Assembly: GCA_945897555.1 (NCBI GenBank)
Contig: CAMDGF010000008.1
Coordinates: 1 to 57,906, forward strand
DNA: 57,906 nucleotides
Direction: 5' to 3'
Source of the DNA: Klebsiella pneumoniae
Lineage (GTDB): Bacteria; Pseudomonadota; Gammaproteobacteria; Burkholderiales; UBA3065
The notes below the pieces were generated by a model. The model made no database searches and was not told the origin of the DNA. It saw only the letters and a list, made by a program, of their open reading frames with translations. Of this stretch, positions 8,206-51,938 are shown in pieces. Each line of letters starts with the position of its first letter. Within the stretch, counting starts at the first letter, position 1. A program made the position numbers and the translations under genes.

Positions 8206-9024
8206 CTACGCCCAGACCAGCACCTCGGCTTTGCCACCATTGCCGGTGTCGCCCATCCAGCGTTCGGCCCTCGGATTGACCGGCAGCGTGGCGAACGGCG
8301 CGCCAGCGTCTTTCCACGAGGCCATCAGCAGCGGCAAGAAGGCCAGCGTGTGTGTGCCGCAATCGGCAAAGGTGGCTGGCAGGGCAGGGCGCTGCCGCAC
8401 GATCAGCGAACCGCGCCGCATATTGTGGCCGCAGTGCTCACCGATACTGCCGAGCACCAGCACCGTTCCGGCGACCATGCGCGAGGCAGCATAAGCCCCG
8501 GCGTTGCCGGCTACCAGGATCTGTCCACGACGCAGCTGGTCCGCCAGCCGCTCGCCAGCGTTGCCGTGCACCACCAGCATGCCGCCCGACATGCCCTTCT
8601 TGTTGCCGGGCAAGGGCGCACCGGCGCAGTCGCCCACATTGCCCTGCACGATGATGCGGCCCTTCTTCATCTCGCAGGCAGCAAAGTCGCCGGCGTTGCC
8701 GGTCACGGTGATCTCGCTGCCCTTCATTTGCAATCCGAGGTGATCGCCGGCATCGCCCTCGACACAGATGCTGCCACCGGTGGCGCCGGCACCGATGCGG
8801 TGGCAGCGGCCGGTCGTCCCAGCGAACACGATCTGCGCCGCGTCCGCGCCGCTGACCTCAAACACATCGCCGACGCGCGCCGCGCGCCCACCCACCAGGA
8901 TCGGTCGCGCGGCGATCTCCGTGGCACTCAAGCCGCCCAGCGCATCCGCGGTCAGGCCGCTGCAGTCGATGTCGGCGGCTTCTGCGCCCGCACCAGCCTT
9001 CAGTGCAAAGGTCAACGCGCTCAC
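8206..9024 (-). CDS. fhcC: Formyltransferase/hydrolase complex subunit C (FhcC)
   Basis: A 272-residue homologue of formylmethanofuran dehydrogenase subunit C, one of four subunits of the Fhc complex that turns formyl-H4MPT into formate. The middle of the protein is a parallel beta-helix of glycine-rich repeats, seen as GNAGDF, GNVGDC, GNAGER and GNAGAY at near-regular spacing of about 20 residues. The GTG start overlaps the fhcD stop (GTGA), so it is the last gene of the leftward fhcBADC operon. It converges on aqpS with about 31 bases between the stops. Confidence 0.95.
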   Translation of the reverse strand: MSALTFALKAGAGAEAADIDCSGLTADALGGLSATEIAARPILVGGRAARVGDVFEVSGADAAQIVFAGTTGRCHRIGAGATGGSICVEGDAGDHLGLQMKGSEITVTGNAGDFAACEMKKGRIIVQGNVGDCAGAPLPGNKKGMSGGMLVVHGNAGERLADQLRRGQILVAGNAGAYAASRMVAGTVLVLGSIGEHCGHNMRRGSLIVRQRPALPATFADCGTHTLAFLPLLMASWKDAGAPFATLPVNPRAERWMGDTGNGGKAEVLVWA

Positions 9025-9953
9025 TTCGCACCTCCCATGATGTCGTGCAGGTGGAACTGGAACTGGCCCAGTTTGCCCCCGTAGTTGCCGGCCGAGATGC
9101 GGCGGATGCCGCCCGCCGCGCCGATGTCGCAGCAGGCCTGCACGCCGACGCGGGTCGCCTCGCGCACATCGGCCTCGGTCAGGCCATCGATGACGATCTC
9201 CATCACCGACTCGATACCCGGCGAGATCTCGCTGCGCGTGATGCCGCGGATGGTCGGGCAGAAGGCGTCGTTGGTGGAGGCCATCAGCGCTTTGTACTTG
9301 CTGCCGACCTTGGAGCCGGAGCGCACCACCCCGCCGGGGAAGGGCATCACCACGTTGGGCAGCTTCTTCATTGCGTCGATGGCGGCTTCGCACGCGGCCA
9401 GTGCTTGCGGTTGGCTGTCGGCCAACACCAGGAAATTGCCACCGCCCACCGCGCGCACCATGCCGGTGGTCTCCTCGACCAGGAACTCGCCGTCCATCAC
9501 CGGGATGCGCCAGTAGCGCCGCGATCCGATCTTCTTGCTCTGCTGGAAGCCGTCGCCAAAGAAGCGCAGGTTCTTACCCAGGTTGATGCGGTCGCCACCG
9601 TCGATGCCGCTAAAAGCAGCACTCGTGGGAGAAGTGAGCACGCACTGTCCCATCCGTGTCTCGACTTGCTTGATGAGCACGGCCGATGCAGCGGCAAACA
9701 GCAGCACTGAGTAGCCGGGGCGGCCATCGGGGGTCTCGTCCGGGCTCAGTTCCCGCTCGATGCCGGCCTCGACACCGCAGGCGATCACCGAGGTGGCGAA
9801 GCCAGTCATGGCGTTGGCGGCGTTGTAGGCCCAGCGGTGGTTCTGCGCGGTGATGAGGATGCGCGTGCCGCGCATGCCAAAACCCTCGGCAAAGGTGTCG
9901 TCGATTCGGGTGCCGTTGATGACCATGTCGCGGACGGGCGTCGTGTCGCTCAT
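9021..9953 (-). CDS. fhcD: Formylmethanofuran:H4MPT formyltransferase (FhcD/Ftr)
   Basis: A 310-residue formyltransferase that moves the formyl group between H4MPT and methylofuran inside the Fhc complex. Family hallmarks are visible: the N-terminal INGTRIDDTFAEGFGM, GYSVLLFAAA, RRYWRIPVMDGEF with the following glutamate-rich turn, and FPGGVVRSGSKVGSKYK. Its length matches archaeal and methylotroph Ftr. The ATG overlaps the fhcA stop by four bases (ATGA), and its own stop overlaps the fhcC start. It probably assembles with FhcA, B and C as in Methylorubrum. Confidence 0.96.
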   Translation of the reverse strand: MSDTTPVRDMVINGTRIDDTFAEGFGMRGTRILITAQNHRWAYNAANAMTGFATSVIACGVEAGIERELSPDETPDGRPGYSVLLFAAASAVLIKQVETRMGQCVLTSPTSAAFSGIDGGDRINLGKNLRFFGDGFQQSKKIGSRRYWRIPVMDGEFLVEETTGMVRAVGGGNFLVLADSQPQALAACEAAIDAMKKLPNVVMPFPGGVVRSGSKVGSKYKALMASTNDAFCPTIRGITRSEISPGIESVMEIVIDGLTEADVREATRVGVQACCDIGAAGGIRRISAGNYGGKLGQFQFHLHDIMGGAK

Positions 9954-11623
9954 TGCGTCCTCCCGTGCGTGCAGTCGTGCACATGCAGCTTGGAGCCGTG
10001 ACCGCACTCGCACATCTCGTCATTGGAGATCTTGAAGTTGCCCATGCGCTGCGTACGGAAGCGCCTGAAATGCGGCTCGATCACCTTCTCGATGCTGGCG
10101 TCGTATTCCGGCTTGACCACATGGGTGTTGCCCCACACCACCTGCACGATCTGGCCATCGCGGGCCACCAGCGTGCCGTCCTTGAACACGTAGTTGGGCT
10201 TGGCGAACATCTTCTCGCGGTCGGCGTCCTCGGTGTAGACAGTGATGTCAGCCGCAGCGCCCACGCCCAGGTGCCCACGGTCACGCAGGCCGAGCGTCTT
10301 GGCGGGCGCGGCGCGCGTCATGATGGCGATCTCGTAGAGCGAGTATTCGCGGTCGAGCGAGCCCAATGTCGAGAGACCTGCGGCATCGGTGTTGATGCGT
10401 GCCAGCTGCTCGTTGCGGAACGACTTGTCCATCAGCAGCCGGATCAGGTGCGGGTAGCTCGTAAACGGCGCTCCGTTGGGATGGTCGGTGGTGAGGAACA
10501 CGCGCCATGGGTCGTCGATGAGCAGGAAGGTCTCCAGCCCGATGCACCACTGCAGCGCGTTCACAAAGTTGGTGTCGCGGTACCTGAAAGGCACCACGCC
10601 GCAACCGGCGTCGCATTCGATGTCCATGATCACCGATTTGGACGGGTCGGCATGCGCGGCGTTGCGGTGCTGGCTCATGTTGTCGCCGGAGGCGGTCACA
10701 GTCTGGCCGAACAGGATCTGCCCGACGTCCACCGAGATGTTCTTGTGGGTGTTGACCATCTCGGCGATGTGCGCCGCGCCGCTGGAGAACTTGCGGTCGC
10801 CCTCGGTCCCGTAGCTGTGGAACTGGATGTGGGTGAAGTGCGCCGGCAGCCCATCCAGCGCGGCGAACGAGTCTAGCGTCGTCTGCACATTGCCCGGCAC
10901 GCCGAGGTTGCAGCCGTGCACGTGCAGCGGGTGCGGCACGCCCAGATCATGCAGCGCCTGCGCCAGGGTCTTGAGGATCTGCCGTGGGGTCACGCCGTAG
11001 AAGGGTGCCTGTTCGTCGAGGTCGAGCCTGCGCTGGTTGAACTTGAAGGCCGAGATGCCACCCGGGTTGACCACTTTGAGGCCCATGGCCTGGCTGTGGG
11101 TGATGGTCCAGGCCACGTAGTCATTGATCACGCGCTGGTCGGCGCCGTCCTTCATCAGGCTCAGCAGCAGGTCGTCGCTGCCGAGCATGGCGTAGGCGCC
11201 CTTGTCGATGATCGGCGTGTCGCCCATCTCCATGTGTGCCTGGCGCGCGTTGACCGGCATCATCGCCGGCTCAAAGCCGGCGGTGTAGCCCATCTCGGCG
11301 TAGCGGTAGCCGGTGGTGAAGGTGCTCGGCGCTGCGTGGCCGCAGCCGGAGCGCTGAAGGTCGGTGGCGGCGCAGAGGTCGGGCCGGTGGTCCTCAGGCA
11401 GCATGGCGCGGGCGATGTTGACCTTGCCACCGCCGATGTGGGTGTGCAGGTCGATGGCGCCGGCCATGACCAGCTTGCCGCGCAGGTCGTACTCTTGATC
11501 GACCTTGGTGCCTGGCTCGGGCGCGTCGACGATGCGGCCGTCGCGGATGTAGATGTCCTGCGCGACGCCGTCGCGGTTGTGCGCCGGGTCGATGACCTTG
11601 CCGCCGGTGAGCTTGATCAGCAT
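9950..11623 (-). CDS. fhcA: Formyltransferase/hydrolase complex subunit A (FhcA)
   Basis: A 557-residue amidohydrolase-superfamily protein that hydrolyses formyl-methylofuran to formate in the bacterial Fhc complex. The metal-binding HxH is at residues 60-62 (IDLHTHIGGGK), and further conserved metal-site regions are PLHVHGCNLG and LTTDHPNGAPF. In Methylorubrum this subunit carries methylofuran as a bound prosthetic group, and the dehydrogenase function of archaeal homologues is lost. The start overlaps the fhcB end by 7 bases; the stop overlaps the fhcD start. Confidence 0.96.
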   Translation of the reverse strand: MLIKLTGGKVIDPAHNRDGVAQDIYIRDGRIVDAPEPGTKVDQEYDLRGKLVMAGAIDLHTHIGGGKVNIARAMLPEDHRPDLCAATDLQRSGCGHAAPSTFTTGYRYAEMGYTAGFEPAMMPVNARQAHMEMGDTPIIDKGAYAMLGSDDLLLSLMKDGADQRVINDYVAWTITHSQAMGLKVVNPGGISAFKFNQRRLDLDEQAPFYGVTPRQILKTLAQALHDLGVPHPLHVHGCNLGVPGNVQTTLDSFAALDGLPAHFTHIQFHSYGTEGDRKFSSGAAHIAEMVNTHKNISVDVGQILFGQTVTASGDNMSQHRNAAHADPSKSVIMDIECDAGCGVVPFRYRDTNFVNALQWCIGLETFLLIDDPWRVFLTTDHPNGAPFTSYPHLIRLLMDKSFRNEQLARINTDAAGLSTLGSLDREYSLYEIAIMTRAAPAKTLGLRDRGHLGVGAAADITVYTEDADREKMFAKPNYVFKDGTLVARDGQIVQVVWGNTHVVKPEYDASIEKVIEPHFRRFRTQRMGNFKISNDEMCECGHGSKLHVHDCTHGRTQ

Positions 11624-12936
11624 GCGCGGACCTCCTGCGTGCCGGTTGCACGCTGCGGCTTGAGCGCGGCGAGGATGGCTGCGGTCACGTCTGCCACGTC
11701 CGGCAGCCCGATGTCGCGCAGGCTGCGCATCGGCACCGCCACCGAGCTGTCAGTGCGGAATAGGTGCCCGGCGCTGTCGATGCCTGGGATGCCGACCGGG
11801 ATGAAGACGTTACACTCCACCTGCATGGCCGGATGGCCGAGCACCACGCTCGGGACCTTGCCTGCCGGCGGCGTCTTGTCCGGGTCGAAGCTCGACACCC
11901 AGAACAGCGCGTCGGCGCGGCCCTCGGCGAGCACGCGTTCCGCGTCCAGCGCCACCGGGTCGTGTTGCGGGCCGGCGGCCGACAGGCGCGTGCGCACGGT
12001 GAAGCCGGTCTGCCAGGTGATCACCTGATGCGCGGTGTAATCGCCGTCGCTGCCGCCCAGCGGCAGGCCGTTGCAACGGGTGTGGGCGTTGAGTTCGCGC
12101 ACCAGGTCGCAGGCGGACTGCACCGCCAGTTCGGCGTGGTCGAAGTCAAGGTCGGAGGTGACCCACGCCACCACGCCGTACTTGGCCGCCTTGAGCCGCT
12201 CGGCCAGACGCGCCAGTTCCGCCAGCGGGATGCCGGCGACCGCGTCGCCGCTCACCGGTGCGCCGCGCGCAAAAGCGCGCAGCGCCTGCGCCACTTCGCC
12301 CAGTTGCTCGTTGCGGCAGGCCAAAACCTGCGGGGCGCGTCCAGCCGGCGAGGTCGCCAGTGCGGCGTCCTTCGGCTCACCGAGGATCACCACTTCGCGG
12401 TCCTCGGCGCGCAGGCCGAACAGCGTGTCGTCGACCCACAGGCAGCGCTCGTAGAAGCGCGGCAGGCGGCTGGCGATGTCGGTGCCGAAGCAGACCAGCA
12501 GGTCGGCGCGGTTGCGCACTTCGGAGAGGCTCGTGACCACCCAGCCCGAGTTCTGCACCACGTGGAAATTGCGGAACATGCTGTAGCTGTTCATGTGATC
12601 GACCGTGCCGCCGGTGGCATCGGCCAGTGCCATGACGCCACGCATGCCTGGCAGGTGTGTGCCGCAGCCTCCGAACAAGGGCGCGCGGGCGCCACGCAGC
12701 AACTCGGCCGCCGCGGCCACCGCCTGTTCGAGAGTGGCCGACTGGCCATCGACTCTGGCGGTGGCGCCGGCCTCAAGGTGGCGGTTGGCGGCATCGAAGC
12801 CGGCTACGGCGCGCGGGCAGTTGCCGGCATCGATACGGACGCGTCCGTGGTCGGCAGTCACGCTCAGGTCATCGCATAACAGGCCGCAGAAGCCGCAGGG
12901 CACGTCGTGGTGTGTCTCGGGTGGATGGTGGCTCAT
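11617..12936 (-). CDS. fhcB: Formyltransferase/hydrolase complex subunit B (FhcB)
   Basis: A 439-residue homologue of the molybdopterin-binding subunit FmdB/FwdB of formylmethanofuran dehydrogenase. The N-terminus keeps a CGFCGLLCDDL motif, and GTHLPGMRG and NSYSMFRNFHVVQNSGW are recognisable. In bacterial Fhc complexes this subunit is regarded as a scaffold that has lost the Mo/W active site. It is the first gene of the leftward fhcBADC operon. The ATG at 12936 begins MSHHPPETHH; an in-frame TTG lies two codons upstream. Confidence 0.93.
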   Translation of the reverse strand: MSHHPPETHHDVPCGFCGLLCDDLSVTADHGRVRIDAGNCPRAVAGFDAANRHLEAGATARVDGQSATLEQAVAAAAELLRGARAPLFGGCGTHLPGMRGVMALADATGGTVDHMNSYSMFRNFHVVQNSGWVVTSLSEVRNRADLLVCFGTDIASRLPRFYERCLWVDDTLFGLRAEDREVVILGEPKDAALATSPAGRAPQVLACRNEQLGEVAQALRAFARGAPVSGDAVAGIPLAELARLAERLKAAKYGVVAWVTSDLDFDHAELAVQSACDLVRELNAHTRCNGLPLGGSDGDYTAHQVITWQTGFTVRTRLSAAGPQHDPVALDAERVLAEGRADALFWVSSFDPDKTPPAGKVPSVVLGHPAMQVECNVFIPVGIPGIDSAGHLFRTDSSVAVPMRSLRDIGLPDVADVTAAILAALKPQRATGTQEVRAC

Positions 12937-13155
12937 GCGCAAGGCGCCCTGTGTTTGATGTTCTGCCGACCATGGCGGCTTGACGTCGCTGCGTTTGCGA
13001 GCGAGTTTTATAAGCGGTCTTACTCGTGCGGGAGCCAGAGTTTAACCTCGTCATGCGGCGAATTGAGCGCTGCCGGCCAGCGGCCGCCCCGCCGACCTTG
13101 ATGCATAATCGGCACAGTCTAAAAAACCGGCGCTGTGTCCGGCCAAACGGAGCTC
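12937..13155. promoter_or_regulatory. Divergent intergenic region between fhcB and mptG
   Basis: This 219-base gap must hold the promoters for both the leftward fhc operon and the rightward mptG-mtdB genes. Two A/T-rich patches are visible: a TATAAA on the minus strand (13007-13012), about 70 bases before fhcB, and a CATAAT on the plus strand (13104-13109), about 47 bases before mptG. Neither has a clear -35 hexamer, and no obvious shared operator palindrome was found. Confidence 0.45.
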
Positions 13156-43781: not shown

Positions 43782-46073
43782 TCAGTTGGGCGGTGGCGGC
43801 TCGGCTGCATCGCCAGGCGAGCCGTCGGGGACGTCCTCCTGGTAGAAGAATTCGGTGAGGCCGTAGCTCGAAAAGCGGCCGCTGCCAGGGTCGATCAAGG
43901 CGGTGGCGATGCCAGCGGGCTCCGCCATCTCCGTCTCCGGTATGCCTTGCAACGCGACTCGCATGTAGTCGATCCAGATCGGCAGCGCGGCGACACCGCC
44001 GGTCTCTTTCGGGCCAAGGCTCTTGGGCTGGTCGTATCCGATCCAGCTCACGGCGACCAGCCGGGGTGTGTAGCCGGCGAACCACGCATCGACATTGTCG
44101 TTGGTGGTGCCAGTCTTGCCCGCCAGATCGCTGCGGCCGAGGCTGAGCGCCCGGGTCGCGGTGCCGGAACGGACCACATCCTTGAGCAGGCTGGTCATCA
44201 ACCAGGCATTGCGCGGTTCGATCACTTGCTCGGCCGTGTTCCCGACCTGCACGGGTTGCGCCTGCGCCAGCAGGCGTCCCTTGCTGTCGAGGATCTTCTT
44301 GACCAGATAGGGCTTCACCCGGTAGCCGCCATTGGCCAGCACCGCGTAGGCCTCGACCATCTGCATCGGCGTCACGGCACCCGACCCGAGTGCCAGACTC
44401 AGGTAGGCGGGGTTGCGGCGTGCATCAAAGCCGAACCGGGTGATCCATTCCTGCGCAAACAGCGGCGTGACGGTTTGCAGCACACGGATCGCCACCATGT
44501 TCTTGGACTTCGCCAGTGCCACGCGCAATCGTAACGGCCCTTCGAACTTGCCGTCGTAGTTCTGCGGCGTCCACGCGCTGCTGCCGGTCACGCTGGCCTC
44601 GAAATGCAGGGGGGCGTCTTCGACCAGCGTCGCTGGCGTAAAGCCCTTCTCCAGCGCCGCCGAGTAGATGAAGGGCTTGAACGTCGAGCCGGGCTGACGC
44701 CATGCCTGGGTGACGTGGTTGAACTGGTTGCGGGTGGCATCGAGACCGCCGGCGAGGGCGCGGATGGCGCCGTCAAAGGGGTCGATGGAGACGATGGCAG
44801 CTTCTGCTTCCGGCAACTGACGCAGCTTCCAACTGCCGTCCTCACTTTGCTTGAGCCAGACTTCGGCACCCCGTTGCAGACGTCTACCCGCCGGTGCCTT
44901 GTCGCCGATCCAGTTCTTGACCATGCCAAGCCCGTCGCCGCTCAGGGTCAGGTTGTCGCCGAGACGGGTACGCACCTTGACCTCGCGCGCATCCACCGCA
45001 AGGACGATCGCTGGTTGCATGCCAGCCACCGGGAGCGCGTCTTGCAGCACCTCGTCGGCCGCTTTCTCTGCGAGTGTCGGCACGTCGGGCAGACGCACGG
45101 TGCGGGTCGGACCGCGGTAACCACGACGCTCGTCGTAGTCGAGCAGGCCTTGGCGCAGCGCCGTCTGCGCTGCTGTCTGGTGTGTCGAAAGGATGGTCGT
45201 GTGTACGGTGATGCCGCTGTTGTAGGCCGCCTCGCCGTAGCGCTCGTAGATGTCGCGGCGGACCATCTCCGCGACGAAATCCGCCGACTCGCCAGCCGTC
45301 AGCCGCGCTGCGCGCACATTGATCGGCTGCGCCTTTGCCGCCTCGAGTTGCGCCTCGGTGATGTGCCCCAGCGAGCCCATGCGCTCAAGCACGTAGTTCA
45401 TGCGGGCCCGAGCGCGTCGGGGGTTGGTGATGGGGTTGCCGGTAGAAGGGGCCTTGGGCAGTCCGGCGAGCATGGCTGTCTCGGCCAGGCTGAGCTGCTT
45501 GAGGTCTTTGCCGAAGTAGGTCCGGGCCGCTGCTGCGAAGCCGTAACTGCGTTGCCCAAGGTAGATCTGGTTGATGTACAGCTCGAGGATCTGGTCCTTG
45601 CTCAGATTCGATTCGATCTTGTAGGAGAGCAGAGCCTCGTTGAATTTGCGCGTGAGTGTGCGCTCACTCGAGAGAAAGAAGTTCTTGGCCACCTGCATGG
45701 TGATGGTGCTGGCGCCCTGGCGGGTCTCGCCGGCCACGAAGTTGGCCAGCATGGCGCGCAGGACGCCGGCGTAGTCGATGCCGCCATGCTGGTAGAAGCG
45801 CTCGTCCTCGGCCGCCAGAATGGCATCCACCAAGGGCCGCGGGACATCCTTGAAGCGCACTACGGAGCGGCGTTCCTCGCCGAACTCGCCGATCAGCTTG
45901 CCGTCCTCGGACAGGATGCGCAGCGGCAGCTTGGGCCGGTAGTCGGTGAGGACCTCGAGCGAGGGCAGCTTGGGGTAGGTGATCAGCGCAGCAAAGGCCC
46001 CCAGCATGCCGCCGCTCAGGACCAGCGTGGTGGCGACGAGGGCGAGGCCGAGCAGCAGTCTTTTGGGCTTCAA
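43782..46073 (-). CDS. mrcA: Penicillin-binding protein 1A (bifunctional transglycosylase/transpeptidase)
   Basis: A 763-residue peptidoglycan synthase anchored by one N-terminal membrane segment (LLLGLALVATTLVLSGGMLG). The GT51 glycosyltransferase part has EDERFYQHGGIDYAGVLRA with the catalytic glutamate (about residue 82) and GASTITMQVAKNFFLS. The transpeptidase part has the catalytic serine in GSTFKPFIYSAALEKG, the SKN triad and KTGTTND. The start appears to be TTG, giving MKPKRLLLG; no nearby ATG or GTG with a ribosome-binding site is seen. It is divergent from pilM across 133 bases, as in many beta- and gammaproteobacteria. Confidence 0.95.
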   Translation of the reverse strand: MKPKRLLLGLALVATTLVLSGGMLGAFAALITYPKLPSLEVLTDYRPKLPLRILSEDGKLIGEFGEERRSVVRFKDVPRPLVDAILAAEDERFYQHGGIDYAGVLRAMLANFVAGETRQGASTITMQVAKNFFLSSERTLTRKFNEALLSYKIESNLSKDQILELYINQIYLGQRSYGFAAAARTYFGKDLKQLSLAETAMLAGLPKAPSTGNPITNPRRARARMNYVLERMGSLGHITEAQLEAAKAQPINVRAARLTAGESADFVAEMVRRDIYERYGEAAYNSGITVHTTILSTHQTAAQTALRQGLLDYDERRGYRGPTRTVRLPDVPTLAEKAADEVLQDALPVAGMQPAIVLAVDAREVKVRTRLGDNLTLSGDGLGMVKNWIGDKAPAGRRLQRGAEVWLKQSEDGSWKLRQLPEAEAAIVSIDPFDGAIRALAGGLDATRNQFNHVTQAWRQPGSTFKPFIYSAALEKGFTPATLVEDAPLHFEASVTGSSAWTPQNYDGKFEGPLRLRVALAKSKNMVAIRVLQTVTPLFAQEWITRFGFDARRNPAYLSLALGSGAVTPMQMVEAYAVLANGGYRVKPYLVKKILDSKGRLLAQAQPVQVGNTAEQVIEPRNAWLMTSLLKDVVRSGTATRALSLGRSDLAGKTGTTNDNVDAWFAGYTPRLVAVSWIGYDQPKSLGPKETGGVAALPIWIDYMRVALQGIPETEMAEPAGIATALIDPGSGRFSSYGLTEFFYQEDVPDGSPGDAAEPPPPN

Positions 46074-46206: not shown

Positions 46207-47181
46207 ATGTTTCCGGTGCAGTCCAAGCGGCTGTTGCAGCACGTCCGCCAGCGTTTGCCGGCCGTTGCAGTCGGCATCGATGTCGGGCGCTCGGTCATCC
46301 GGGTCGCCACCTTGCTCGGGTCGCCGCGCGGCATCGAGCTGGCGGGGCTGGCCTCCGCGCCGGTCACCTCCCTTCAAGGTGCGGCGGGCGAGGTGCCCCT
46401 GCTTCGCCAGACGGTCGAGCGGGCCTGCCGGCACGCATCGTGTTGGCCGAGGCGGCCAGCCATGGCGGTGGCCGCTGGCAACGTGCTGGCGCGTGCACTG
46501 CAGGTCCCGCTGGAGGTCGACGATGAGGCGGTCAGCGAGCTGGTCGAGCGCGCCGCACGTCAGCTGCCGGTGGCTGCGGCGGACCTGAGCGTGGCTTGGG
46601 CCGTGCCTGGCGACTCGGCTGAGGCTCCCTCCGCAGGCACCTCGAGCCGTCCGGTCCTCATGGTGGCGGCGCGACGGGAGGCTGTGCTGGCGCGACAGTC
46701 CCTTGCCGCGCGTGCGGGGCTCGGTCGAGTGCCGATCGAGGTCGACCTGTTTGCCAGCCTGCGCGCCGCCGCGGCCGCCTGGCAAGACTCCGGGGTGCCT
46801 GGGGCGGTCCACTTGCTGGTCGATGCCGGCCTAGATTCGGTCCGCGCCGTGGCATCTTGCGGACAAGGGCAACTGCCGAGCTTCCGTGTCGTTCCGGCGC
46901 CGCGATCGTGCACCACCGCCCAGCTCGCCAGCGCAGTCGCCGAAGCCCTGCATGGGCTGCGCTCGCCCACGCCGGCAGTCGCTCAGGTCGTCATCCTGTC
47001 AGGTGGTCGTGCCGGTGCTGAGGGTCTCGCGCTGGCCATCACCTCGCTCACCGGGCTGTCGTGCTGCTTTGCCGAGCCCTTTGCCGGGCTGGCCGACCCG
47101 CGCGGACTTGCGCCGATTTCAGGCCCGTCGGCGGCCGTGTGGTCGTGCGCCATCGGCCTCGCGCGCCGGGGTTTGGCATGA
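46207..47181 (+). CDS. pilM: Type IV pilus assembly ATPase-like protein PilM (divergent)
   Basis: A 324-residue cytoplasmic actin-like protein of the type IV pilus alignment complex. The phosphate motif VAVGIDVGRSVIRVATL (about residues 20-36), GRVPIEVDLFASLRAAA and the C-terminal glycine-rich loop VVILSGGRAGAEGLALA fit PilM, but similarity to standard PilM appears low. It starts the rightward pilM-N-OP-Q-aroKB set and its stop overlaps the pilN ATG (ATGA). The position next to mrcA is the usual place for this cluster. Confidence 0.82.
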   Translation: MFPVQSKRLLQHVRQRLPAVAVGIDVGRSVIRVATLLGSPRGIELAGLASAPVTSLQGAAGEVPLLRQTVERACRHASCWPRRPAMAVAAGNVLARALQVPLEVDDEAVSELVERAARQLPVAAADLSVAWAVPGDSAEAPSAGTSSRPVLMVAARREAVLARQSLAARAGLGRVPIEVDLFASLRAAAAAWQDSGVPGAVHLLVDAGLDSVRAVASCGQGQLPSFRVVPAPRSCTTAQLASAVAEALHGLRSPTPAVAQVVILSGGRAGAEGLALAITSLTGLSCCFAEPFAGLADPRGLAPISGPSAAVWSCAIGLARRGLA

Positions 47182-47726
47182 GGCCGATCGACCTCGCCGA
47201 TCCGACAGCGCCGATCACGCCACCACCGGCGCACCTGCTGCAGCCGGCGGTCCTGTTGCTGGTGCTCGCTCCGCTGGGATCGGTGGCGGTGCTGCAGCAC
47301 GCGCGATCGGAGGCATTGCTGCGCAGCGATGCCCTGCAGCAGGCCATCATCAGGGCCGAAGCGGCGGTTGCCGAGCATGCGGAAGCCCAGCGCCGCATCC
47401 AGTGGTATCAGGCCGTGCTCGACGGTGTCGACAGCCTGCATGGGGCCAACACGGCGACGCTGGCGCTGCTGCCAGCCATCTCCCGACACCTCCCATCGGG
47501 CATCCGCTTTTCCGAGCTATCGATCGATGCCAGAAGCATCCGCATCGCGGGCAGTGCACGCGCCCCAGCGGAGGTCTCGCAGTGGCTCGGTCACGCTTCC
47601 ATGAGCACGCCCGGGCTGCGCTGGGACGGCCCCGAGATCCGCGATGCTGCAGCCGAGCCCGGTCAGGTCGGTTTCGGTCTGCACATCCGGCGTCAATCAC
47701 TGGCCGTACGCGTGCCAGCACCATGA
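47178..47726 (+). CDS. pilN: Type IV pilus inner-membrane protein PilN (divergent)
   Basis: A 182-residue bitopic protein with one membrane segment (PAVLLLVLAPLGSVAVL, about residues 23-39) followed by a coiled coil (AIIRAEAAVAEHAEAQRR) and a ferredoxin-like periplasmic domain with LPSGIRFSELSIDARSIRIA. Position and shape identify PilN. The short cytoplasmic tail reads MRPIDLADPTAP, not the INLLPWR-like motif by which typical PilN binds PilM. The ATG overlaps pilM and the stop overlaps the pilO start. Confidence 0.8.
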   Translation: MRPIDLADPTAPITPPPAHLLQPAVLLLVLAPLGSVAVLQHARSEALLRSDALQQAIIRAEAAVAEHAEAQRRIQWYQAVLDGVDSLHGANTATLALLPAISRHLPSGIRFSELSIDARSIRIAGSARAPAEVSQWLGHASMSTPGLRWDGPEIRDAAAEPGQVGFGLHIRRQSLAVRVPAP

Positions 47727-48718
47727 CCCGAGCCACCATCGACCTAGAGGCCGCAGTGGCCACTGCGCCGACCGATGGCGCATCCGTGACGCGTCTGTCC
47801 AGCCGCGAGCGGGCTTTGCTCTGGGCGCCTTGGGGGGTTCTGGCGGTGTGCGCGGGCTGCTCACTGCTGCTGGCGGCCGACTCGTTGCGGCGCTTGCTCG
47901 AGGTAGGGTCGACGCTCGATCGGCAGCACCAGACGCTGCAGAGAGCCGACCTTCATGGACGCTCGGAAGGCGATCCGTCGAGGGCTGACCTGCCAGCGCA
48001 TATGACCGCCTTGACTGAGGCCGTGGCACAGTCGGTGATGGCGGCCCCTGGCCTGCTCGCTCACTTTGAAGCGCTCGCAGCTGACGCCGGAGTGACCATG
48101 TTGCAGTTCGTGCCGGAGGCCACTGCGACCGACACGCCCTCGCCGATGCGCTTGCGGCTGAATGTGCAGGGCTCGTTGTCCGGAGTCGACGGCTTCCTCA
48201 CAGATATGGATCGACCGGCACTTGCCATCGAGCTGTTGGCGTTGCGCTTTGCGCCCGGGTCTGCGGCCGGCACGGTCCTTTGCGAGCTGACCGTGCAGAT
48301 CCACGACCAGGAAGGGCTTGCGGAATTGGGCCGTTTGCACGCTACGAGCTCTGTGGTGACGGGCGAGCGGCCGGAGGCGCTCGTGCCAGAAGCCCTTCTG
48401 AGCAGCGCAGCCGGGCCGCATGCTGCACCTTCTGCCAGGGCCAAGCCGGTCGCCAACGATCCGGGTCACCGTACGCCGAAGCCCGATGCGCTGGCAGGTG
48501 TACGGCTGGCGGGGATCCTGCGTCAGGGCGACCGGCTCGCCGCACTGCTCGAAGTCCCCGGCGAGGGGTTGCGCATGTTCGGTCTGGCTGACCCGCTCGG
48601 CGCCAGCGGATTCAGGCTCGCAGGTGCCGGCGTGGCGAGTGTGGTGCTGGCCAGCGCCACCGGTGAGCGACGCACGCTGTGGCTTGCCGGGTCTGACGAG
48701 GCAGGGCCGTGGAAGTGA
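47723..48718 (+). CDS. PilO-PilP fusion protein of the type IV pilus assembly
   Basis: A 331-residue protein. Residues about 32-52 form a membrane anchor (LLWAPWGVLAVCAGCSLLLA), followed by a coiled coil and a PilO-like domain with MRLRLNVQGSLSGVDGFL. After a Pro/Ala-rich linker (about residues 220-262), the last 65 residues (GVRLAGILRQGDRLAALLEV onward) look like the PilP/GspC homology region. No separate pilP lies before pilQ, which overlaps this gene by 10 bases. The fusion call is inference from size and pattern. Confidence 0.72.
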   Translation: MTRATIDLEAAVATAPTDGASVTRLSSRERALLWAPWGVLAVCAGCSLLLAADSLRRLLEVGSTLDRQHQTLQRADLHGRSEGDPSRADLPAHMTALTEAVAQSVMAAPGLLAHFEALAADAGVTMLQFVPEATATDTPSPMRLRLNVQGSLSGVDGFLTDMDRPALAIELLALRFAPGSAAGTVLCELTVQIHDQEGLAELGRLHATSSVVTGERPEALVPEALLSSAAGPHAAPSARAKPVANDPGHRTPKPDALAGVRLAGILRQGDRLAALLEVPGEGLRMFGLADPLGASGFRLAGAGVASVVLASATGERRTLWLAGSDEAGPWK

Positions 48719-50241
48719 GGCACGTTGGCTGCGCGCTCCTCGCCTGTCTGGTGCTGCAGCCGGGCGCTGCCATGGCCGAGACATCGTCACCGCGCGCGGG
48801 GCCTGTTGCGGGCACCCTGCCAGCCGTAGCCAGCATCAACGAGTCGGCGGGCATCAGTCTGCAATTCAGTCAGGCTGACATCCGCGCTGTACTCGAGGCG
48901 ATCGCCGATTTCTCGGGGCTCGGCATCGTCGCTGCGGAGTCGGTCGAAGGGCGCGTCAGCCTGCGCGTGCGGGACGTGCCTTGGCAGACCGCGCTGGATC
49001 TGGTTCTACTGAGTCGAGACCTCGAGCAGAGGCGCGTCGGCGATCTCATCCTCGTGGCGCCGCGACAGGAGTTGCTCGAGCGGGAGCGTCAGTTGCAGGC
49101 CCTTGAGGCGCAGCGCGCCGATCTGGAGCCGATCATCGGCGAGAGTATCCAGCTGCACTATCAGCGCGCCGAGGCGTTTCGGCTATTGCTGGGCGAGCAG
49201 GGCAATCGCGTGCTGTCGAAACGCGGTGTGGTCATCGCCGATGCTCGCACCAACCGCATCTTCGTGCAGGACACAGCCGTACGTCTGGCTGAGGTCCGTC
49301 GGCTGGTGGCCGACACCGACATCCCTTTGCGACAGGTCATGATCGAGGCGCGCATCGTCGAGGCCGCCGACACCTTTGGCCGCAATCTTGGCGCGCGTCT
49401 CGGCGTCAATGACATGTCGAACGCCCGCGGAAGCACGCCCGGCATCGGCGGCGGTGTGCGGCTCCTGCCGGGAGGGGGGCTGCCCGGGGCCGGCGGAGTC
49501 GCTGGTCAGTCCGGTCAGTATGACCTGCCTGCCAACACGCTGGTCGAGCCACCCACATTGGGTCCGGCGGTCGATGCGCTGGCGCAGTCGCTCTGGGTCA
49601 ACCTGCCGGCTGCTGCCATCCGTGGCGCTGCACCCGGCGCCTTCAGCCTCGCCCTGTTCGACGCTGGGCTCACCCGCTTCTTGAACCTCGAGGTCACGGC
49701 GCTCGAGGCTGATGGTCGTGGGCGCATCGTCTCCAGTCCGCGTGTCATCGCGGCGGACCAGGAGGAGGCCGTGATCGAGCAGGGCACCGAGATCCCGTTC
49801 CAGCTGGCGACGTCCAGCGGGGCCACTGCAGTCACCTTCAAAAAAGCCACCCTGTCGCTGCGCGTCCGTCCGCAGATCACTCCGGATAACCACATCATCA
49901 TGAATTTGCGAGTGAACAAGGATTCCCCCAATTTTGTGAATGTCACGGCGTTCGGTCCGCCGATCGACACGCGACAGATCCAGACCCAGGTGCGCACTCA
50001 GAACGGTGGCACGGTGGTCATCGGCGGCATCCTCACCGAGTCCGAGCAGAACAACCGCGCGGGCATCCCATGGCTTGCCGGTCTGCCCGCCATCGGACGG
50101 CTTTTTCGCAGCAACAGTGCGCAGCGCGACAAGACAGAGCTGCTGATCTTCGTCACTCCGCGGATCGTCGAGCAAGCGCCGATCGTCGCGCCTGGGCCTG
50201 CCCATGGAGCGACCCCGCAGTGGCCAGCCGCGTCAGACTGA
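48709..50241 (+). CDS. pilQ: Type IV pilus secretin PilQ (short form)
   Basis: A 510-residue outer-membrane secretin with a signal peptide (about residues 1-23). After a short linker come an STN/N0-like segment (ISLQFSQADIRAVLEAIADF), an N1-type region with TNRIFVQDTAVRLAEVRRLV, and the secretin domain (GRIVSSPRVIAADQEEAVIE, GTEIPFQLATSSGATAV, TVVIGGILTESEQNNRAGIP and RSNSAQRDKTELLIFVTPRI). The AMIN repeats found at the start of standard PilQ proteins, usually about 700 residues long, are missing. A GTG at 48715 is the alternative start. aroK and aroB follow, the classical order. Confidence 0.88.
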   Translation: MEVRHVGCALLACLVLQPGAAMAETSSPRAGPVAGTLPAVASINESAGISLQFSQADIRAVLEAIADFSGLGIVAAESVEGRVSLRVRDVPWQTALDLVLLSRDLEQRRVGDLILVAPRQELLERERQLQALEAQRADLEPIIGESIQLHYQRAEAFRLLLGEQGNRVLSKRGVVIADARTNRIFVQDTAVRLAEVRRLVADTDIPLRQVMIEARIVEAADTFGRNLGARLGVNDMSNARGSTPGIGGGVRLLPGGGLPGAGGVAGQSGQYDLPANTLVEPPTLGPAVDALAQSLWVNLPAAAIRGAAPGAFSLALFDAGLTRFLNLEVTALEADGRGRIVSSPRVIAADQEEAVIEQGTEIPFQLATSSGATAVTFKKATLSLRVRPQITPDNHIIMNLRVNKDSPNFVNVTAFGPPIDTRQIQTQVRTQNGGTVVIGGILTESEQNNRAGIPWLAGLPAIGRLFRSNSAQRDKTELLIFVTPRIVEQAPIVAPGPAHGATPQWPAASD

Positions 50242-50295: not shown

Positions 50296-50856
50296 ATGTC
50301 CGCTGTCACGCGAATCTTCCTCGTCGGTCTCATGGGCGCCGGTAAATCGACGGTGGGCCGCCTGCTCGCGCGCGAATTCGGGCTGACTTTCGTCGACAGC
50401 GACCACGAGATCGAGGCGCGCAATGGCGTGCCCATCGCCACCATCTTCGAACTCGAGGGTGAGGCCGGTTTCCGTGCGCGCGAGCGCAAGGTCATCGAGG
50501 AACTCACGTGTCGCGACCATATCGTCCTTGCCACAGGCGGCGGCGCCATCATCGACCCCGATAACCGCCGGGATCTGGGAGGGCGCGGTTTTGTCATCTA
50601 CCTGCATGCCCGGCCGGAGAGCCTGTTCGTGCGCTTGCGCAACGACCGTGCCCGCCCCCTGTTGCAGACCGCCGATCCTCGTGCGCGCCTCGTCGAGCTC
50701 TATGACGAGCGCGACCCTTGGTATCGCGAGGTCGCTGATCTGGTGGTCGAGACGGGTCGCCAGAGCGCGGGCAAACTGGCCCGGCAGATCGCCGCGCGCT
50801 TCTCTCCGCCACGGGTCGAGGACGTCTCCGGGGGGGTGCCTGCATGCAATCCCTGA
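50296..50856 (+). CDS. aroK: Shikimate kinase
   Basis: Phosphorylates shikimate in aromatic amino acid synthesis. The 186-residue protein has the P-loop [15 protein letters not shown] (residues about 11-25), [11 protein letters not shown] (substrate site), [19 protein letters not shown] and RPLLQT with the LID arginine. AroK supplies chorismate and hence the PabB substrate. It starts 54 bases after pilQ; its end overlaps aroB by 13 bases. Confidence 0.96.
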
Positions 50857-51938
50857 CCGTCGCGCTGGGCGACCGCAGCTACCCGATCCATATCGGGCCC
50901 GGGCTGCTCGGCCAGGCCGACCTCATCGTGCCGCACTTGGCTGCGCCGAGTGTCGCCATCGTCTCCAACACCACGGTGGCACCCCTCTATCTGGCCCGTC
51001 TGGCCGAACCGCTGCGTCAGGCGGGGGTGTCTGTCACCGAGGTGGTCTTGCCCGACGGTGAGGCCTACAAGACCCTCGACACCCTCGATCAGGTGTTCGA
51101 TGCCCTGTTGCGGGCGCGCTGCGAGCGCAAGACCACCCTGATCGCTCTCGGCGGTGGCGTCATCGGCGACCTCACCGGCTTTGCCGCTGCAAGCTACCTG
51201 CGCGGCGTGCCCTTCATTCAGGTGCCGACGACCCTTTTGTCGCAGGTTGATTCCTCGGTCGGTGGCAAGACAGGCGTCAACCACGCGCTCGGCAAGAACA
51301 TGATCGGCGCCTTCTACCAGCCGCGGTTGGTTCTGGCCGACACGGATACGCTGCGGACACTGCCTGATGCCGAACTGGCCGCCGGGCTGGCGGAGGTCAT
51401 CAAATACGGCCTGATCCGCGATCTGCCTTTTCTGGAGTGGCTCGAGGCAAAGATGCCAGCGCTGGTCGCCCGCGACACCGATGCGCTGATCGAGGCGATC
51501 CTGCGATCCTGCCGCAACAAAGCCGAGGTGGTGGCTGAGGACGAGCATGAAGGAGGGGTGCGCGCGCTTCTCAACCTCGGTCACACCTTCGGCCATGCCA
51601 TCGAGACCGCGGCCGGTTATGGCAACTGGCTGCACGGACATGCGGTGGCGGCCGGCACGTTGCTGGCGGCGGAGACCTCGCTCGGCTTGGGCTGGATCGG
51701 CGAGGCGGATGTGGCCCGCATCGAAGCTTTGTTCCGTCGCGCCGGGTTGCCGGTGCGCGCGCCCGATTACGGGGCCGAGCGCTACTTCGAGCTGATGGCG
51801 CAGGACAAGAAGGTCGAAGCCGGTCGCATCCGCTTCGTGCTGCTCAAGGCGATCGGTCAGGCAGTGCTCAGCGCACAGGTGCCGCGCGAGCTTCTGCAGA
51901 GCGTCCTGACGGGCCGTTTCATTCAGCCGAACGCCTGA
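50844..51938 (+). CDS. aroB: 3-Dehydroquinate synthase
   Basis: NAD- and metal-dependent enzyme converting DAHP to 3-dehydroquinate. The 364-residue protein has [39 protein letters not shown], the [20 protein letters not shown] loop, EVIKYGLI, and the metal site [12 protein letters not shown] with HGHAVAAG. Overlaps aroK (13 bases) and converges on the DegS-like gene across about 11 bases. AroK-AroB together are the usual partners of the pilMNOPQ cluster. Confidence 0.97.

Follow-up and report, generated by a model that had tools for sequence, protein, structure and literature searches.

We analyzed a 57,906-nucleotide stretch of contig CAMDGF010000008.1 (hereafter the window) that carries, at positions 46207–50241, a compact operon of type IV pilus genes in the order pilM-pilN-pilOP-pilQ, flanked by mrcA and aroKB. 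All four genes lie on the plus strand: pilM (46207–47181, 324 aa), pilN (47178–47726, 182 aa), a gene in which pilO and pilP are joined (47723–48718, 331 aa), and pilQ (48709–50241, 510 aa). ATGA overlaps couple pilM to pilN and pilN to the joined gene, and pilQ has a GTG start that overlaps the end of the joined gene by 10 nt. The source genome is 1.81 Mb in size and 98.5% complete. Its host lineage is a small freshwater betaproteobacterial family, represented here by five species of one genus (the window's species and four others).

We concluded that the third protein of the operon is a real PilO-PilP fusion. The AlphaFold2 model of this protein showed a helix at residues 27–77, a second helix at 92–121, a ferredoxin-like fold at 125–194, disorder at 204–258, and six strands at 261–321. 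Projected on the plus strand, the PilO part consists of a transmembrane helix with a coiled coil (47801–48085, aa 27–121) and a ferredoxin-like core (48095–48304, aa 125–194; predicted local distance difference test, pLDDT, 62–90). These are followed by a disordered Pro/Ala linker (48332–48496, aa 204–258; pLDDT mostly <50) and a six-strand module resembling PilP and the homology region (HR) of GspC (48503–48685, aa 261–321; pLDDT 82–90). Foldseek matched this one chain to PilO (3jc8_O and 2rjz, with 5uvr also matching the ferredoxin-like core), to PilP (2ivw, 2lc4), and, for the PilP-like module, to the HR of GspC as solved with GspD bound (3oss_C; target TM-score 0.81, rmsd 1.9). By hhalign, the profile built from the last 80 residues matched one built from nine canonical PilPs of the order to which the family belongs (P = 2.5e-6). 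Against PDB sequences the module profile found four distinct PilPs, including those of Neisseria and Pseudomonas (E 0.02–0.1), and the only stronger match was a designed beta-propeller, on short repeats; a phmmer search of the PDB with the single fusion protein gave no match. The fused frame was open in all five species, the other four versions being 24–42% identical to that of the window, and the five proteins aligned across both halves, with a linker whose length varies by species. Because the fused frame and its coupled starts are kept in five species, an artefact, frameshift or sequencing accident was ruled out. Within this frame, the PilP module has no lipobox of its own.

An ordinary PilP gene is common in the order: the canonical family PF04351 was present in 119 of 150 genomes, and in two ordinary genomes that were read directly, pilN, a pilO of 207 aa and a pilP for a lipoprotein of 174–176 aa were distinct genes. 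PF04351 detected no separate PilP in any of the five genomes of the focal family; this model misses the fused module as well, so that the search excludes only an ordinary PilP. The separate lipoprotein PilP by which a type IVa alignment complex is recognized was therefore not seen in the focal family (PF04351, five genomes).

The secretin of the operon belongs to the type IV pilus subfamily (TIGR02515, 428 bits over a cut-off of 284). It has an N0-N1-secretin layout (PF00263, PF03958, PF07660), and its alignment with the solved PilQ 6ve2 (E = 3e-86) begins at N0. About 48 residues precede N0 in the window's PilQ, versus roughly 265–330 in its AMIN-bearing relatives, and a Pfam search of the protein found no AMIN match. 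Elsewhere in the genome, AMIN was detected just once, in an N-acetylmuramoyl-L-alanine amidase of AmiC type. In the PilQ tree, the family was nested among AMIN-bearing PilQs of its order, and the order-level clade had a Shimodaira-Hasegawa-like approximate likelihood ratio support of 99–100. This nesting dates both the loss of AMIN and the joining of PilO to PilP to the ancestor of the family. PilQ has been vertically inherited; horizontal gain of an already fused operon was unsupported, because PilQ groups with the PilQs of the order.

The original prediction, which was made by reading the letters of this DNA, had proposed most of this architecture. Its gene order, coordinates, overlapping starts and stops and downstream aroKB were all recovered, and its division of the third protein into a PilO-like domain, a Pro/Ala linker and a C-terminal PilP/GspC-like module agrees with the profile, PDB and structural matches. 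Its 510-residue PilQ lacking AMIN agrees with the TIGR02515 match and with an alignment that starts at N0. It had named two findings that would speak against it, a C-terminal module that does not match PilP and a separate lipoprotein PilP gene elsewhere; neither was found, with the proviso that a very divergent second copy escapes PF04351.

Genes for further parts of a pilus machine were also present. PilT scored 402 bits against TIGR01420 (cut-off 319; PilT/PilU family), and the best family for PilB was TIGR02538, at 591 bits slightly below the cut-off of 676. A PilC/GspF-family protein adjoins pilB, as does a likely prepilin peptidase that was read by eye and had no NCBIfam match. ComEC was found in all five family genomes. 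As a possible purpose of the simplification, the original prediction had named competence or a different pilus. Judged from sequence, PilB, the PilC-like protein, PilT and ComEC would fit a retractable type IVa pilus able to take up DNA.

We read the locus as the alignment subcomplex and secretin of an ordinary type IVa pilus that descended vertically. On this reading, the set was compacted when the betaproteobacterial family arose, PilO took over the role of PilP, and the machine still works; we give it a probability of roughly 0.78. We infer its binding contacts, placement and function as follows. Cytoplasmic PilM would still hold PilN through an eroded N-terminal tail, and PilN would pair with the fusion's PilO portion, as its fold suggests. 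The PilP beta-module would be carried at the end of PilO on the flexible Pro/Ala linker, rather than docked as a lipid-anchored PilP, and in this position it may bind the N0 domain of PilQ as PilP or the GspC HR does. The fusion would set PilO:PilP at 1:1, with the PilO membrane helix standing in for the PilP lipid anchor. With AMIN lost, placement of PilQ by binding of AMIN to peptidoglycan would be gone, and by analogy with other type IVa secretins lacking AMIN the machines may be dispersed and not polar. PilB, the PilC-like protein and PilT would drive extension and retraction, and the presence of ComEC makes DNA uptake a likely use.

Several points weigh against this interpretation. The window's 331-residue fusion reached no Pfam or NCBIfam cut-off, including that of Pfam PilO; hence its assignment leans on profile, fold and synteny. 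AlphaFold2 worked from an alignment of just five sequences, and its model of the whole fusion is weak (predicted template modelling score 0.35). Beyond the operon, the machine parts covered were the ATPases PilB and PilT, the PilC-like protein, a likely prepilin peptidase and ComEC. Lastly, PilM and PilN have diverged so strongly that their binding may have been lost.

A possible though somewhat unlikely alternative is that the locus, with its degenerate PilM and PilN tail and its short AMIN-less secretin, encodes a dedicated DNA-uptake machine that no longer supports twitching, as in the comABCDE and hofMNOPQ systems of Pasteurellaceae and Enterobacteriaceae. The comABCDE genes of H. influenzae and hofMNOPQ of E. 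coli share the synteny described here, a short AMIN-less secretin and a degenerate PilM-like protein. Their position after mrcA and before aroKB is the same. In the window, mrcA (43782–46073, minus strand; PBP1A, TIGR02074 625 bits, cut-off 509) is divergent and lies upstream of pilM, where it is the usual neighbor of pilMNOPQ. The genes aroK (50296–50856) and aroB (50844–51938), both on the plus strand and assigned by sequence reading, lie downstream, and the locus L025 has the same neighbors. Uptake alone would also be consistent with ComEC in five of five genomes, with the HofQ model as second-best NCBIfam match to PilQ (278 bits), and with the recurrence in other families of an AMIN-less PilQ (398–475 residues) beside degenerate partners. 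However, a clean PilT and a PilB-type PilB are parts that a twitching pilus needs too, and the tree places the focal PilQ with the ordinary AMIN-bearing PilQs of its order and away from the AMIN-less group. In addition, ComC and ComD (HofO and HofP) are encoded by separate genes, unlike the focal fusion.

The cytoplasmic side of the complex was also altered. The window's PilN has the N-terminal tail MRPIDLADP, a helix at residues 18–102 and a ferredoxin-like periplasmic domain; it matched PF05137 just short of the cut-off (E = 6e-4), its AlphaFold2 model had a pLDDT of 82, and Foldseek matched it to PulL/XcpY/EpsL, PulM and PilO domains. The tail motif reads IDLA[D/E]P in four family species and INLAP in the deepest-branching one, whereas all 12 ordinary genomes sampled from the order have INLLPHR. 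The first 24 residues contain 0–2 lysines and arginines in all five family PilNs versus 5–7 in ordinary ones. PilM of the window, an FtsA-like protein, passed the PF11104 cut-off (62.9 bits; cut-off 27), fell below that of TIGR01175 (73.7 bits; cut-off 133), and matched the PilM structures 2ych, 3jc8 and 5eox. In all four family members that were readable, about 29 residues of PilM domain 2 (the FGG..LTQEIQ...EAEAAK segment) are deleted, and R replaces the K of the GxDIxxxxxK motif, the window's phosphate-1-like motif being GIDVGRSVIR. We take the deleted segment, from the actin/FtsA fold, to be part of the nucleotide-binding domain. Only 20 of the 193 positions that are identical in three ordinary PilMs were kept in all four family PilMs.

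These changes raise the alternative that PilM-PilN coupling has been lost and that PilM is on its way out, which we consider distinctly unlikely. The substitution of D for N in the tail, the missing LLP and basic stretch (the latter in five of five species), the deletion in four of four readable PilMs and the few conserved positions kept would all agree with it. Nevertheless, pilM is an intact, translationally coupled frame in the species where it is readable, and I-[N/D]-L-A is still the best conserved stretch of the family PilN N-terminus. We infer instead that the contact between PilM and PilN in the cytoplasm has been weakened or reshaped. The original prediction had PilN without its PilM-binding motif; this captured a real change, to which the loss of the basic stretch adds, but was overstated, as the sequences indicate a motif that is eroded, and total loss goes beyond the evidence. 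It overlooked the PilM deletion. Its broader claim of a simplified alignment complex was sustained by comparison with the ordinary set of the order, given the PilO-PilP fusion, the AMIN loss, the shortened PilM and the lost basic stretch of PilN.

It is highly improbable that a type II secretion system supplied the C-terminal module, which would then be an HR domain of GspC type and not a diverged PilP: one family member did match PF11356 (T2SSC, E = 3e-4) better than PilP (E = 0.08), and the GspC HR was among the best-fitting solved structures, but the module sits between pilN and pilQ in the place of pilP, its profile found the four PilPs and no GspC in the PDB, and the HR and the PilP core are one fold family that a fold match cannot separate.

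Our preferred reading, a compacted type IVa complex with PilP's role on PilO, can be set beside known systems. Relative to canonical PilMNOPQ sets (from Pseudomonas and from the family's own order), the focal set shares gene order, the PilN and PilO folds, the PilP beta-module and the N0-N1-secretin layout of PilQ. It differs in that PilO and PilP are fused, PilP lacks a lipobox, PilQ lacks AMIN, neither LLP nor the basic stretch is left in the tail of PilN, and PilM is about 29 residues shorter. In canonical systems, the unstructured N-terminus of PilP binds PilNO and its beta-domain binds PilQ (PMC5805733). A few PilO-PilP fusions, including Pseudomonas putida Q88CU9, were reported in 2011, with a possible 1:1 stoichiometry (Korotkov et al., PMC3169554). 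Compared by description only, Q88CU9 is like the focal protein in holding PilO and PilP in one type IV pilus polypeptide, and differs in that its host belongs to another order. The focal case is an independently evolved example of this already reported fusion type and no new kind of machine. AMIN-less secretins of type IVa pili have been described in Burkholderia cepacia, Moraxella catarrhalis and Synechocystis, where they are linked to peritrichous pili (PMC10653833). Like the focal PilQ, these lack AMIN within a type IVa machine; for the focal family, a dispersed placement is a prediction. The original prediction mentioned neither the earlier fusions nor these secretins.

GspC of type II secretion offers a further parallel, in that its HR module, which binds the secretin N0 domain, is held by a transmembrane helix and not by a lipid. 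In GspC, no PilO/GspM ferredoxin domain lies between the helix and the HR. The family provides a natural experiment on the purpose of AMIN domains, of PilM domain 2 and of the lipid that anchors PilP. It adds another argument from nature for a 1:1 ratio of PilO to PilP, and would be a simple source of pre-fused PilO-PilP for structural work.

We surveyed a class-wide sample of 369 genomes, of which 305 had a PilQ and 298 a PilP (PF04351). Fusions outside the focal family were found by reading loci with a weak or absent PilP match, so their count is biased. PilO-PilP fusions occurred in seven other gammaproteobacterial families (f67, f81, f88, f110, f129, f146, f202), whose PilQs are about 398–449 residues long and leave no room for AMIN. 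In genomes G208 and G244, a single chain exceeded the Pfam cut-off for PilO (36.1 and 37.3 bits, respectively) as well as that for PilP (36.5 and 26.5 bits); three further fused families passed the PilP cut-off alone, and f67 and f129 were under the cut-offs. Long PilP open frames in ordinary genomes (L036, L091, L103) were rejected as fusions, being spurious extensions or separate genes. An approximately unbiased test rejected a single clade for all fusions (p = 8.7e-10 on 47 rows, and p = 1.4e-4 once three more were included to give 50), indicating that the fusion arose at least two times.

The fused cases in the sample, from eight families, all had an AMIN-less PilQ. The converse does not hold, as an AMIN-less PilQ stood alongside separate PilO and PilP in f105, f154, f202, f219 and f222. 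Only two well-supported independent contrasts of fusion against AMIN state were available, too few for a statistical link between fusion and AMIN loss, and AMIN differed in just one of them. We offer tentatively, and regard as rather unlikely, the idea that AMIN loss and the move of the PilP module onto PilO are linked steps towards a minimal alignment complex, and that the betaproteobacterial family and a divergent group of mostly small-genome gammaproteobacteria took them independently. With peptidoglycan no longer placing the secretin, a covalent PilO-PilP strut would then be what keeps it joined to the inner platform.

Other unusual arrangements were seen among the sampled loci. Locus L120 (847–2451; G255, f157) has a 534-residue frame in which a PilO domain (PF04350, 22.5 bits; cut-off 22) runs straight into Secretin_N and Secretin, with neither a PilP nor an N0 match. 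This apparent PilO-PilQ fusion is topologically odd, and the joining is probably an in-frame deletion. A third architecture was found in f31, of the same order as the window (L070 and L071, genomes G034 and G078), in which a 230-residue protein (L070) with a transmembrane segment, a coiled coil and an HR-like part, and no Pfam match, lies directly 5' of a 365-residue AMIN-less secretin, followed by aroKB. At L111, L122 and L123 (G395, G173 and G364), PilO adjoins PilQ with no PilP module visible between them, and the PilQs of L122 and L123 seemingly lack N0.

The 1.8-Mb genome of the window contains four secretin genes. It carries a type II secretion-like gspG-F-E-...-gspD cluster (L059, G000:C31) and two Tad/Flp-type loci with cpaB, cpaC and cpaF-like genes (L060 on C34 and L061 on C15). 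Elsewhere in the window, fhcB, fhcA and fhcD (9021–12942, minus strand) encode formylmethanofuran dehydrogenase/formyltransferase subunits of the tetrahydromethanopterin C1 pathway, which makes methylotrophy or formaldehyde oxidation a probable trait of the organism.

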